Source of the DNA: a virus
DNA length: 56,723 bases
IMG/VR virus record: IMGVR_UViG_3300037246_000975
Coordinates: 1-56,723 of that record
Reading direction: 5' to 3' (one strand)
Shown: piece after piece, positions 3,370-30,338 of the stretch
Layout of the letters: the number at the start of each line of letters is the position of its first letter
Position numbering within the stretch: position 1 is the first letter of the stretch
Made by a program: the position numbers and the translations under genes
The notes under the pieces: generated by a model
Database searches by the model: none
What the model was told of the DNA's origin: nothing
What the model saw: only the letters and a program-made list of their open reading frames with translations

Positions 3370-3403
3370 ACTATTCACTTTTCAAATAAACCCTGCGGAG
3401 GGC

Positions 3404-5002
3404 TTAAAGCATAGTGGCTTCTGTGAGACCCGTTAATTTGACAGCACGAGGATCTCTTGGTGCAATTAAATTGTAGTACCAGAAAGGAGCCTCCACTAAT
3501 TCCTGTGGGGCACCAGAGGCAGCACGGGCTATCATAAACACACCGGAAAGTCCACCAAGCGGAGCCAAAAATTCAAGTTCCGGCCCCATCTTGCCATCCA
3601 TTCCACCCAATCTCGGAGGACTAAATCTCTGGATGTTGTCCCCACCGAACTTCATGGCATACAGCGTATTACTCAGGCACATCGGACTCATAATCCACTC
3701 ATAGCTTCGTCCACCGAACTCATAAGCAATCTGAGACCAACCGCCCTTGAAGCTCAGGGCTTTCCCGGTACGCTCATAATTTTGCCTGTTGTTATACAGA
3801 CCCGGCTGTTGAAGCCATTTTAACTGAACGCCCTGCGTGGTGATAATGGTGTCTAAGGTTTCCCCCGGATAAGCATCCAAGTATCCGCCAATGTAACCAT
3901 TAATCACATCGTCGGTAAGAGGCCCATTCACGGCTTTAACCTGAGACTTGAACTGTGGATATAAGGTCAGGTCAAGAGCTTGGGCTTCAGAGGCTCCGCC
4001 CATAATAACACCAGATGCCTTAATCCAATCATTGAGTCCCCAACTAAACTGAGGGCGGTTACTGACACGACTCGTATGGGCTATCACAATCCAGTCATCC
4101 GCAGCAACAGGATTGCCAGTTTGAACCCAGTCTCCCGTTGCACCCTCGTCATAGGTCGCCTGAATACCAGTCACGGAGTTAATGGCTTTAACTGTGAATG
4201 CTTTCCCAAGATAATCAACACTGGTGATGATTACCTGACAATAGGATTGAGCATTCCACTCATAGTTACGCACATCCGACCCGTCATCATTAGTCCCGTC
4301 TTGTAATACACCTCCGACATCGGCGACAAGATCAAGTCTCATACCCTGACGGAAATTGGCGATTCGACCATACTGCTCGTCAATATCAATTTTGATGTAA
4401 TCTGTGGAACCAACTTCGGCTATGACCTTGACTCTTCCGAGAACCTGATTCGATGCACCCGAGGTTGCATCTGTCCCTGTTTGATTTACTACACTGTGGG
4501 AGAAAAAGCTGGAAGCCTCATATATAGCTTTCAGTTTCGCTACGGCCTTCATGTCCCGTGCCACTACCTTAATCTGGGCAGCATTTAACAACTCAGCCTG
4601 CATCCAAGAGGCGGGGAGACTAAAGTTCCCCACGACCTTATGAAGGACAAGTGTTCTCTTAATATCGCCCATGTGAGGCGATTCCGAACCCTTCGGGAAA
4701 ACCGCTAAACCAGCAATCGGAGATTCAATTCCATATCTCTGGTCTAACAGTTTAGTTTGTGTCCCGGTAATGCCATCCATTTCCGGGCCGAGTGGGTCAG
4801 CCGACTCAATCAAACCAGCCACACCAGTTTCATAAAGGTGAAGCACTTTATATCCACGACCAAGACCAGTCTGGCTTTTAACTCCCAACGCTGTTCGTTT
4901 AATCTTATCGAACACAGGAGCTATGGTGGGGCCTGCCTCCTGGATCATCATCGGCAGTTCTTCTCTCACCAAGTTATCGAGGGCTGCAATTGCTTGTGCC
5001 AT
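3404..5002 (-). CDS. major capsid protein (probable)
   Basis: 532 residues, ATG at 5002 after GAGGATAATACG. Position after portal and a scaffold-like protein, length, and the mixed alpha/beta sequence without low complexity fit an HK97-fold major capsid protein. N-terminal residues 1-90 carry the amphipathic helix plus a loop region rich in Gly (GVKSQTGLGRGYKV), and the C-terminal third has the compact pattern expected for the P- and A-domains. A gene-end terminator follows, as is common for highly expressed capsid genes. The fold is inferred from context, not from an unmistakable motif. The alternative is a different abundant head protein. Confidence 0.72.
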   Translation of the reverse strand: MAQAIAALDNLVREELPMMIQEAGPTIAPVFDKIKRTALGVKSQTGLGRGYKVLHLYETGVAGLIESADPLGPEMDGITGTQTKLLDQRYGIESPIAGLAVFPKGSESPHMGDIKRTLVLHKVVGNFSLPASWMQAELLNAAQIKVVARDMKAVAKLKAIYEASSFFSHSVVNQTGTDATSGASNQVLGRVKVIAEVGSTDYIKIDIDEQYGRIANFRQGMRLDLVADVGGVLQDGTNDDGSDVRNYEWNAQSYCQVIITSVDYLGKAFTVKAINSVTGIQATYDEGATGDWVQTGNPVAADDWIVIAHTSRVSNRPQFSWGLNDWIKASGVIMGGASEAQALDLTLYPQFKSQVKAVNGPLTDDVINGYIGGYLDAYPGETLDTIITTQGVQLKWLQQPGLYNNRQNYERTGKALSFKGGWSQIAYEFGGRSYEWIMSPMCLSNTLYAMKFGGDNIQRFSPPRLGGMDGKMGPELEFLAPLGGLSGVFMIARAASGAPQELVEAPFWYYNLIAPRDPRAVKLTGLTEATML

Positions 5003-18273: not shown

Positions 18274-18486
18274 TCAATTTGTTTTGTCGCGTTCCAAAGT
18301 GCCGGTACAACCACAATTTCCACATTCCATATCACTGACGTGAGGCCAAACTTTCCGGCCTTTAGGAATTTCAAGAGGAACTACACACGGACGCCCAGCT
18401 CCTTCGATAGATAGATTGGGGGTCGTAGGGGTATGTCCACAGTTGTTGCAGACTGTTTCGATTGTGTACGTTTTCTTGTCGGACAT
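18274..18486 (-). CDS. 70-residue zinc-ribbon protein
   Basis: ATG at 18486 with CGAAAGGAACC upstream. Two knuckles, CNNCGH near the N-terminus and CGNCGC near the C-terminus, lie about 40 residues apart around a Pro/Gly-rich middle. A typical small zinc-ribbon, closed by a strong terminator downstream and preceded by the candidate RNA genes. Confidence 0.65.
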   Translation of the reverse strand: MSDKKTYTIETVCNNCGHTPTTPNLSIEGAGRPCVVPLEIPKGRKVWPHVSDMECGNCGCTGTLERDKTN

Positions 18487-18519
18487 TTTTGGTTCCTTTC
18501 GATTAAGGTTTCGGTTTTA

Positions 18520-18707
18520 GAAAAATGTTGGCGACCGATGACATTCACCATTCTCATTCTTTAGTCATCCCAAGGTCGAACTCTTGTAATGCACCCGTTT
18601 AGCAAGATAAGGTACGTCTAAGTTCGTCATCAAAGGCAACTTGCTTTGCCATAGCAGAATTGGGACTGTAACCCAGTTCGTGTTCTACCACGCCGCCGCC
18701 AACTATA
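18520..18707 (-). ncRNA. candidate structured RNA 2 (about 185 nt)
   Basis: A consensus-like promoter (18713-18741) would start transcription near 18706. The 5' end GTTGGCGGC (18703-18695) pairs with the 3' end GTCGCCAAC (18535-18527) in a 9-bp closing helix with one G-U, and a T-rich tract follows directly. Inside are a TGGG/CCCA hairpin with a 7-nt loop, a GGCAA/TTGCC hairpin, and GATGAC/GTCATC long pairing (18631-18626 with 18542-18537). There is no credible coding frame: a 17-codon frame lacks a ribosome site. It is neither a full tRNA nor a tmRNA by eye. Confidence 0.6.
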
Positions 18708-18712
18708 TTTGT

Positions 18713-18741
18713 ATTATACCATATCGGGGGAAACCGATCAA
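18713..18741 (-). promoter_or_regulatory. promoter of RNA 2
   Basis: Minus strand TTGATC (18741-18736), 17 nt, TATAAT (18718-18713). The -10 box is perfect. Confidence 0.8.
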
Positions 18742-18752
18742 AGGTAAAATAT

Positions 18753-18900
18753 AAAAAAAGAGAGTCCGGCGTACTGCAACAATCCTAAACGGAGGGCCGC
18801 CATCCTTAATGCTGTTCTGACGGAGAGGGCTTTCGACCAACTCTCGCCTTATCATCTCACACAGGTGCGTGAATGACTTATAGGCCCGGGCTTCACGGCA
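18753..18900 (-). ncRNA. candidate structured RNA 1 (about 145 nt)
   Basis: Transcription from the promoter at 18906-18934 would start near 18900. The 5' part folds as a hairpin with CGTGAA/TTCACG arms (18897-18892 with 18873-18868) containing GCCCGGGC. The 3' part is closed by GAGAGT/ACTCTC (18845-18840 with 18765-18760) and runs straight into seven Ts (18759-18753), an intrinsic end. No ribosome site or convincing frame is seen. It shares the TGCGTGAAT core (opposite strand) with the 19-nt element near 22.3 and 24.2 kb. Confidence 0.58.
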
Positions 18901-18905
18901 ACTAT

Positions 18906-18934
18906 ATTGTAGCATACCGAGGGATGTCGGGCAA
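18906..18934 (-). promoter_or_regulatory. promoter of RNA 1
   Basis: Minus strand TTGCCC (18934-18929), 17 nt, TACAAT (18911-18906). Downstream initial sequence ATAGTTG matches that of the RNA 2 promoter. Confidence 0.65.
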
Positions 18935-18973
18935 GGGAAATGTGGGGATTTTGGGAATATTTTTGAGATTTAT

Positions 18974-19346
18974 TTATCGGACGGAAGCATACTCAGGCAT
19001 ACCTTATCGGACGTGAGGGAGACTTCGCTACTACGGGGACGTGCGGGGGACTGCGTGAATTTTGGCTCGGGAAATAAAAATGAGTTTAAGTGGGAGAGGT
19101 CTTTGACCTAACATTACCGGACGTTGCTGGGGGCCGATGGGGGGTTGCTGTGCAGGATATTATCGGACTCGGTGGTTATCGGACTAGGCATGATGGCTAC
19201 GGAGGTTGGATGTTATCGGCGATGTCCTATAACCCGGCAAGTATAACCGCAAGTCTTGAGGTGTAATGGACTTAGTTATCGGACAATTAGTTATTCAGAC
19301 TTATCGGACTTGACTGGACAATTGGTTATTCAGACACTTATCGGAC
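18974..19346 (+). repeat. TTATCGGAC repeat island (candidate origin or iteron array)
   Basis: Exact TTATCGGAC copies start at 18974, 19004, 19160, 19176, 19276, 19301 and 19338. Related copies are TTACCGGAC (19114), TTATCGGCG (19213), TTATTCAGAC (19291, 19326) and, inverted, TTATAGGAC (19232-19224). The last part is a ~35-nt tandem unit (19281-19309 and 19316-19346). No gene is seen from 18916 to 19440. Iteron-type origins look like this, but a regulator array is equally possible. Confidence 0.7.
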
Positions 19347-19365
19347 GCTGTGGTGGGTATAGGTA

Positions 19366-19397
19366 GAAGAAAGGCCCGGATCATGATAACCCTGGCC
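19366..19397 (-). terminator. probable intrinsic terminator after 19441-19701
   Basis: GGCCAGG (19397-19391) pairs with CCGGGCC (19379-19373) with one mismatch, followed by TTTCTTCT on the minus strand. It insulates the repeat island from the upstream operon. Confidence 0.6.
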
Positions 19398-19440
19398 ATG
19401 TGTTATTTAATTTTCAGGCTATAACCAAACCCCCCACATT

Positions 19441-19701
19441 CTAACAGTTATCAACCAATTCTATCCTATACCCAAGACAACGACTAACAGTTCCGTTGTC
19501 CCATGTCACCTCAAATCCTGCTGAAATACCCCGGGATTTATTTGCTTGCAATATTGCCGTAATTGTACCCCGCTCATTACAAGCTTTTTGATATGCTTGT
19601 TTGGCATTAGATTTCGCAGGTTCACGTCCTAAACTTTGCCAATAGTCTCGTTTCCCCTTAAGGCTATATCCACTTTGTTTTACTCTGTCTTCGATTTTCA
19701 T
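19441..19701 (-). CDS. 86-residue basic hypothetical protein
   Basis: From the ATG at 19701 (AAAGAGGTATAAA upstream). The N-terminal 50 residues are Lys/Arg/Gln-rich and helical (KIEDRVKQSGYSLKGKRDYW), the rest has short strands (FEVTWDNGTVSRCLGYRIEL). It is the last gene before the repeat island, so a DNA-binding role there is conceivable. No family recognised. Confidence 0.6.
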   Translation of the reverse strand: MKIEDRVKQSGYSLKGKRDYWQSLGREPAKSNAKQAYQKACNERGTITAILQANKSRGISAGFEVTWDNGTVSRCLGYRIELVDNC

Positions 19702-22199: not shown

Positions 22200-22311
22200 T
22201 TATAGGACGTGCCGATTATCGGACGTTGTGTCCCGCCACGCAGATTATCGGACTATCCCCCAGACTCATTCCTGATACTGCGTGAATTTCCACTCGCGGA
22301 GTTATTCAGAC
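22200..22311 (+). repeat. TTATCGGAC repeat island 2
   Basis: TTATAGGAC (22200), TTATCGGAC (22216, 22245), TTATTCAGAC (22302), plus the 19-nt element at 22277-22295 shared exactly with 24244-24262. Confidence 0.7.
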
Positions 22312-22367: not shown

Positions 22368-22451
22368 ACTATATTGCATCGTATCGGTTTTTTAGTTCAT
22401 TTTTAATCCTCCTATTTATTGGCCTATAGTAGGCTCAGTTCGTATATCTGT

Positions 22452-22480
22452 ATTGTACCATAATCAATAATACAAGTCAA
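22452..22480 (-). promoter_or_regulatory. minus-strand promoter of the tiny-gene operon
   Basis: TTGACT (22480-22475), 17 nt, TACAAT (22457-22452): identical boxes and spacing to the plus promoters at 22139 and 24109. The first ribosome site downstream (AGGAGGATTAAAAATG, about 22415) opens only ATG-AAC-TAA. Confidence 0.78.
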
Positions 22481-22482
22481 GG

Positions 22483-22649
22483 GAAATGTCCTGCGGAGGT
22501 AAAGAGGAGGAGCCGCCCAGTTGTGGTGGCGGGAGGTATCGCCCCGGGCGGCTCGGTGGTGAAAATGATTCCCTATTCATTTATGTTCAAAAAGGGCTGG
22601 CCGGTAATGCCGGATCACTATGCCGGATATTGCAGCCAGCCTTTACCAA
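22483..22649. other. gene-free stretch with inverted repeat
   Basis: Contains one copy of the genome-wide 9-mer (22491-22499) and a perfect 9-bp inverted repeat GAGCCGCCC (22510-22518) / GGGCGGCTC (22546-22554), without a clear T-run. Possibly a weak terminator of the 22650 operon. Confidence 0.45.
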
Positions 22650-24170: not shown

Positions 24171-24262
24171 TTATCGGTCGTAATAGTTATCGGACTGTCC
24201 TCCGCAGAACATTATAGGACTAATCCCCGTAGGTGTTTATCAGACTGCGTGAATTTCCACTC
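24171..24262 (+). repeat. TTATCGGAC repeat island 3
   Basis: TTATCGGTC (24171), TTATCGGAC (24187), TTATAGGAC (24212), TTATCAGAC (24237) and the 19-nt element ACTGCGTGAATTTCCACTC (24244-24262), which touches the stop codon of 24261-24428. A 9-mer copy sits at 24199-24207. Confidence 0.7.
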
Positions 24263-29757: not shown

Positions 29758-29917
29758 AATTTTTCCCTTCTAATTTTTCTGCATCTTCAATGGCTTTCTC
29801 CGACGTACAACGTAACTCGTGGCAACTACGATTGTGACTGGCTACACCAAACCAATATGTCCTGCCATTACAACCTTGATAAGCCAAAGCAACCGGGCCT
29901 TTAATCACATTAAACAT
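29750..29917 (-). CDS. 55-residue hypothetical protein
   Basis: ATG at 29917, overlapping the lipoprotein stop (AATGTTTAA). Three Cys and several His (YQGCNGRTYWF, HNRSCHELRC). Overlaps the next ATG by 8 nt. Small strand-rich protein of unknown role. Confidence 0.58.
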   Translation of the reverse strand: MFNVIKGPVALAYQGCNGRTYWFGVASHNRSCHELRCTSEKAIEDAEKLEGKNYD

Positions 29918-30338
29918 TTTTTGCCTCTAATTCTTCGATTCTTTTCTTGTCTTTAGGACGCTGGCGATATGCTCCTCCTAATAATGTTCCAAGCGTACCG
30001 CCGAACAACATAGGAAGAGCTAAACCGACTGGGCCTTGTGGGGAAAACAAAGTTGTCTTAATCTCTTCCCCACCTAATATCCCAAGATTCGTTATATTTT
30101 TGTAGTATCCCCCTTTGATTTTCTCAATCGTAATCTTGAAATCAATAGCCGACCCGACTCGTTTAGCGTCAAATAGAGTTGTATATGGCATGAGCAATTT
30201 CGGTTCGACACCTGCCCACTCTGCCGCTTCCTCGTTCACATAGGTAGGGGTAATCACATCCTGAAAAGCGGAGCAACCAAACATCACCGCTAAAGCCATC
30301 ACCATCAGAACAGTCAGTGTTTTTTGTTTCTTGTTCAT
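29910..30338 (-). CDS. predicted lipoprotein
   Basis: 142 residues. The N-terminus MNKKQKTLTVLMVMALAVMFGCSA has a basic n-region, a hydrophobic core and a Cys after Gly, consistent with a lipoprotein signal, though the -3 residue is not canonical. A later hydrophobic Gly-rich patch (LALPMLFGGTLGTLLGG) lies near residues 105-125. Phage lipoproteins may block superinfection or act as outer spanins; neither can be decided. Its presence suggests a cell envelope able to handle lipoproteins. Confidence 0.68.
   Translation of the reverse strand: MNKKQKTLTVLMVMALAVMFGCSAFQDVITPTYVNEEAAEWAGVEPKLLMPYTTLFDAKRVGSAIDFKITIEKIKGGYYKNITNLGILGGEEIKTTLFSPQGPVGLALPMLFGGTLGTLLGGAYRQRPKDKKRIEELEAKNV

Follow-up and report, generated by a model that had tools for sequence, protein, structure and literature searches.

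Two proposed small RNA genes at a phage operon start are probably parts of a lineage-specific leader with two promoters

Introduction

The 56,723-base IMG/VR virus record IMGVR_UViG_3300037246_000975, analyzed over its whole length and called the window in the following, carries nearly all of its long genes on the minus strand, including terminase, DNA polymerase, and helicase-like genes. An initial annotation made from the sequence had placed two adjacent candidate structured RNA genes at positions 18520 to 18934, each with its own promoter and a T-tract end. The locus raises the question of whether two discrete RNAs are encoded here or whether both belong to the untranslated start of the operon that follows. 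Phage operon 5' leaders with tandem sigma-70 promoters are known. The features of the locus, all on the minus strand, are as follows.

18906-18934, minus strand: P1, promoter of sigma-70 type with an extended -10, in synteny with the relatives' operon promoter
18753-18905, minus strand: "RNA1", first part of the insert, T7 at its end, structure not above chance
18713-18741, minus strand: P2, another promoter of the P1 type, inside the insert, 28/45 identical to the operon promoter of relative L017
18520-18706, minus strand: "RNA2", second part of the insert, 9-bp end helix (18703-18695 with 18535-18527), then T5
18487-18518, minus strand: leader AAAACCGAAACC..GAAAGGAACC with ribosome-binding site, kept in relatives L017 and L023
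18274-18486, minus strand: the operon's first gene (70 aa), partly conserved in L023

Promoters and coding potential

The two well-spaced promoters of the initial annotation were both located on the minus strand, with a spacer of 17 each. P1 reads TTGCCC-17-TACAAT (18934-18906) and scores 9/12, P2 reads TTGATC-17-TATAAT (18741-18713) and scores 10/12, and a TG precedes the -10 in both. The common start ATAGTTG was likewise found, beginning at 18905 after P1 and at 18706 after P2. Promoter-like matches are common, with 25 in 7.5 kb vs 17.2 ± 4.2 in shuffles, and P1 is counted as a promoter despite this because it is syntenic with the promoters of relatives. Similarity to the L017 promoter amounts to 28 of 45 letters for P2 and 24 of 45 for P1. 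No other promoter-like match occurs between P2 and the gene at 18274-18486, which therefore needs P1 or P2. By direct reading, the product of this gene contains four Cys in CxxC pairs. Given the synteny of P1 with the relatives' operon promoter, the stretch between P1 and the gene is probably transcribed and mostly non-coding.

That the locus lacks a coding frame does not hold strictly, as a 70-aa ORF at 18915-18703 (minus strand) spans RNA1, though it was found to be without a convincing homologue. RNA1 might then be part of a small gene, for which the 70 open codons and a codon score of -0.08, lying between genes (0.23 ± 0.11) and off-frames (-0.47 ± 0.29), could be cited. This explanation is very improbable: the start codon lies inside the -10 of P1, the frame passes through P2, and the best matches were at E 0.06 in PHROGs, E 0.9 by tblastn in phages, and E 0.14 in the fetched loci.

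The syntenic site in relatives

Relatives were collected with the terminase, which yielded 19 related loci, with a helicase alignment, which yielded L023, and with a terminase alignment, which yielded more distant loci. Among the 62 loci compared, several represent one contig more than once and several are chance pattern matches. Relatives were also sought via the first operon gene (18274-18486), of which none were confirmed, and the window's terminase had no match among the GTDB genomes. The site was covered in five distinct lineages, namely L006 (= L019), L010 (= L011), L016, L017, and L023.

The P1 neighbourhood aligned to L023 with 71% identity over 322 nt, reaching position 18900, and to L016 and L017 with 73% over 85 nt and 75% over 48 nt, respectively. 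In L017 and L023, homology restarts at 18517, within the leader AAAACCGAAACC..GAAAGGAACC, and the missing piece is therefore RNA1-P2-RNA2. None of the five relatives covering the site carries RNA1 or RNA2. The promoter directly adjoins the first gene in four of them, the first ATG lying 7 nt past the -10 in L006 and L011, 43 nt in L017, and 52 nt in L023. In the fifth, L016 (IMGVR_UViG_3300009034_000202), this distance is 103 nt and a tRNA-like gene lies between the two (3372-3440, plus strand).

The tRNA-like gene of L016 scores 47.1 bits against the Rfam tRNA model (threshold 29), with a shortened anticodon part of 9 residues vs 13 in the model part shown. ARAGORN called nothing on the 19 loci, this gene included. 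It occupies the same slot between operon promoter and first gene as RNA1 and RNA2, and RNA2, or RNA1, could thus be imagined as a decayed or rebuilt tRNA gene, the more so as the closing helix of RNA2 resembles an acceptor stem. This origin is most improbable. Unlike the L016 gene, RNA1 and RNA2 had no Rfam tRNA match at E 10; ARAGORN did not call them either, and a T-arm beside the closing helix of RNA2 is absent on direct reading; RNA2 was rejected as a tRNA-like gene on the ARAGORN and Rfam results. Across the whole window, ARAGORN found no tRNA or tmRNA and Rfam gave no match at gathering score. With the limit relaxed to E 10 on the locus, Rfam returned nothing useful and no local match better than E 8. 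These results agree with the initial statement that neither RNA is recognisable as a tRNA, a tmRNA, or a known phage RNA family.

Searches for homologues of the insert

No convincing homologue of RNA1 or RNA2 was found in the 62 loci, 50,697 phage records, and 72,556 plasmid records. Against the 62 loci, blastn returned nothing below E 0.1, while DNA similarity was absent in phages and limited to a single 26-nt match (E 0.4) in plasmids. Exact RNA1 and RNA2 patterns, which catch near-identical copies only, had 0 matches in three scans of IMG/VR, and no relative of the locus with more than 90% identity was found. In 20 whole records searched at E <= 10, 19 short matches appeared in 10 of the 20, most of them in the promoter or leader that flank the insert. 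The ones within it (query 117-134, 173-183, 236-257, and 300-313) spanned 11 to 22 nt, at E values of 0.007 to 9; they were treated as chance and could speak against a leader.

With no homologue in the loci, records, phages, and plasmids searched, compensatory base changes in RNA1 and RNA2 were not countable. Lack of conservation had been named from the outset as what would speak against two RNA genes, and within reach of the searches neither a homologue nor covariation was found. As far as the available sequences go, the insert is known so far from one phage only.

Folding and ends of RNA1 and RNA2

The 6-bp helix of RNA1 is present in the sequence, with arms GAGAGT and ACTCTC followed by the seven Ts, and is at chance level, since a helix ending at the T-run and matching its best one in length turned up in 604 of 2000 shuffles. 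The description of RNA1 as structured was not borne out. Its folding z was +0.15, with 109 of 200 shuffles folding equally well, and 0.07 to 0.30 in the genome-tiling comparison.

In RNA2, the proposed 9-bp helix between the 5' and 3' ends exists, with one G-U among the nine pairs of GTTGGCGGC (18703-18695) and GTCGCCAAC (18535-18527), followed by A and T5. A closing helix of at least 9 bp was seen in 41 of 5000 shuffled sequences and in 195 of 20,000 length-matched genome stretches (~1%), chance figures that are qualified by the ends of RNA2 having been picked after looking. As a structured gene, RNA2 folds only modestly, with a z of -1.68 for which 9 of 200 shuffles were as good. Of 202 segments tiled over the genome, 16 equalled or beat this value, and the opposite strand folds better (z -2.5). 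Folded alone, the closing helix has a probability of 1.0, and in the leader context 0.72 from P1 and 0.32 from P2. Just ahead of the T5 lies a weak local hairpin of -7.5 kcal/mol, which shares the 3' arm of the closing helix; speculatively, the two could form a switch. The suggested likeness to 6S RNA holds for topology, as RNA2 has helix-joined ends like 6S RNA and other end-closed regulatory RNAs. It does not extend further, as Rfam gave no 6S match even at E 10 and no conserved long two-stranded rod with a central bubble was shown.

The T-tract ends are present as T7 and T5, but the terminator scan lists no minus-strand site there. Promoters are present ahead of both RNA1 and RNA2, and neither is followed by a clear intrinsic terminator.

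RNA2 might still be a true small RNA of the phage, ~185 nt long and transcribed from P2, in which the 9-bp helix joins the ends and a weak terminator or processing forms the 3' end; RNA1 would then be a second, poorly structured RNA or a spacer. The rarity of such a closing helix among shuffles, the negative folding z, the 10/12 score of P2 with its TG, and the local hairpin ahead of T5 are consistent with this, as is the presence of a tRNA-like gene at this place in L016. It is nevertheless an unlikely explanation, given that no homologue turned up in the 62 loci, 20 whole records, phages, and plasmids, that other genome segments fold equally well and the opposite strand better, and that a strong terminator at the end of RNA2 would cost the gene at 18274-18486 its promoter.

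A leader with two promoters

Most likely, the "two RNA genes" are one untranslated stretch of ~385-390 nt, reaching from the operon promoter to the first gene. A syntenic promoter, a conserved gene leader downstream, and no strong terminator between them were found, as in a 5' leader, and it is reasonably probable that 18520-18905 (minus strand) is a lineage-specific leader insert with two promoters at a conserved operon start. In relatives, a single promoter beside a probable replication origin would serve the operon, whose first gene begins 7 to 103 nt past the -10. Here, P1 is followed by ~385 nt of extra sequence carrying P2, and then by the conserved leader and gene. P1 and P2 would most likely both feed the same operon, with leaders of ~420 and ~220 nt, and the T-tracts would give at most partial termination, with read-through into the gene at 18274-18486. 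The 9-bp helix of RNA2 would be a leader structure rather than the closure of a free-standing RNA, and the stretch may have no separate function.

Tandem-promoter leaders of phages likewise have two serial promoters followed by a ribosome-binding site and a gene, are non-coding, and vary among relatives. The leader in the window, at ~420 nt, is longer than those of the relatives (7-103 nt). Three findings speak against a leader: the closing helix is long for chance (~1%) and begins 3 nt past the expected start site, the T7 following RNA1 is long, and the slot can hold RNA genes, as witnessed by the tRNA-like gene of L016. When relatives lack a stretch, good promoters, T-tracts, and a single long helix are not enough to call it an RNA gene.

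A conserved pseudoknot RNA downstream

A better RNA than RNA1 and RNA2 was exposed ~900 nt downstream by comparison with relatives.

17575-17493, minus strand: pseudoknot RNA, with a 12/12 promoter at 17624-17597 (spacer 16) and a T-rich tail
L016 3737-3823, L017 3849-3935, L020 572-657: aligned counterparts
L011 2844-2928, L006 3710-3800, L023 5720-5800: aligned counterparts

Judged by its pairing pattern, 17575-17493 (minus strand) is an H-type pseudoknot. Its 5' strand, GCGGTCA, is paired with TGACCGC, located in the loop of the helix GGGGTCGG/CCGGCCCC, which is followed by the T-rich tail, with a hairpin with a CACA-containing loop in between. The RNA occurs in seven distinct phages near the helicase gene, and the copies of the six relatives each have their own promoter. 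When registered by hand, the three helices have 6-7/7, 4-5/5, and 8/8 pairs in 7/7 sequences, in crossing order; they were chosen per sequence, and the first helix of L006 is in a different register. In a MAFFT alignment, 87.1% of cells pair vs 39-52% when slid by 1-3 columns. Cells with both sides changed numbered 8 vs 4.1 in shuffles, a count matched by 8 of 500, and 4 of 500 shuffles reached the covariation score, while two-side-changed pairs and further pair types were not above shuffles (238/500 and 314/500, respectively).

A model including the promoter scored 120-178 bits in 9 records, which are 7 distinct sequences, all model-building sequences or copies of them, and the next match reached 35.5 bits. 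Rfam had no match to the pseudoknot RNA. The pattern found 18 stretches in IMG/VR, of which 6 were already-known relatives and 12 lacked the motif by eye, and 8 stretches in GTDB contigs, none scoring with model R1 at E <= 1. The reading frame of the region shifts among relatives, which argues against a peptide, and the gene after the RNA differs among them. From its place, the RNA may be guessed to control replication.

The slot after the promoter near the origin could also be an RNA-cargo site of the clade, occupied by the tRNA-like RNA in L016 and by two orphan RNAs here, with RNA2 as a new end-closed small RNA. This is doubtful; if true, the pseudoknot RNA would be one of several undescribed RNAs in the replication region of this uncultured clade. 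The pseudoknot RNA and the tRNA-like RNA of L016 might influence phage replication or translation in the host.

Other elements of the window

Upstream of P1, TTATCGGAC repeats lie within 18940-19450, with 7 exact copies at 18974-19346, and recur at 22200-22253 and 24171-24245. The conserved blocks GGTCAAAGACC and AAATTYACGCAGTCC accompany these repeats beside replication genes and are kept in several relatives. The repeat region 18940-19450 is a probable replication origin.

Among the 202 tiled segments, the most stable were 22401-22588 (minus strand, z -4.3) and 29961-30148 (minus strand, z -5.2). In the former lies a GC-rich hairpin, GAGCCGCCC..GGGCGGCTC, that on direct reading has look-alikes in L016, L017, and L023, and the latter falls inside the ORF at 29910-30338.

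The motif CCTCCGCAG occurs in 36 copies on both strands vs 0.27 expected, about every 1.5 kb and often within genes, for example at 3393, 5516, 5564, 22491, 23972, 23995, and 55715. It is frequent in relatives too, and its positions are conserved more than those of other 9-mers, for example in 6 of 7 cases in L017 and 6 of 8 in L012, vs ~0.1 for random 9-mers.
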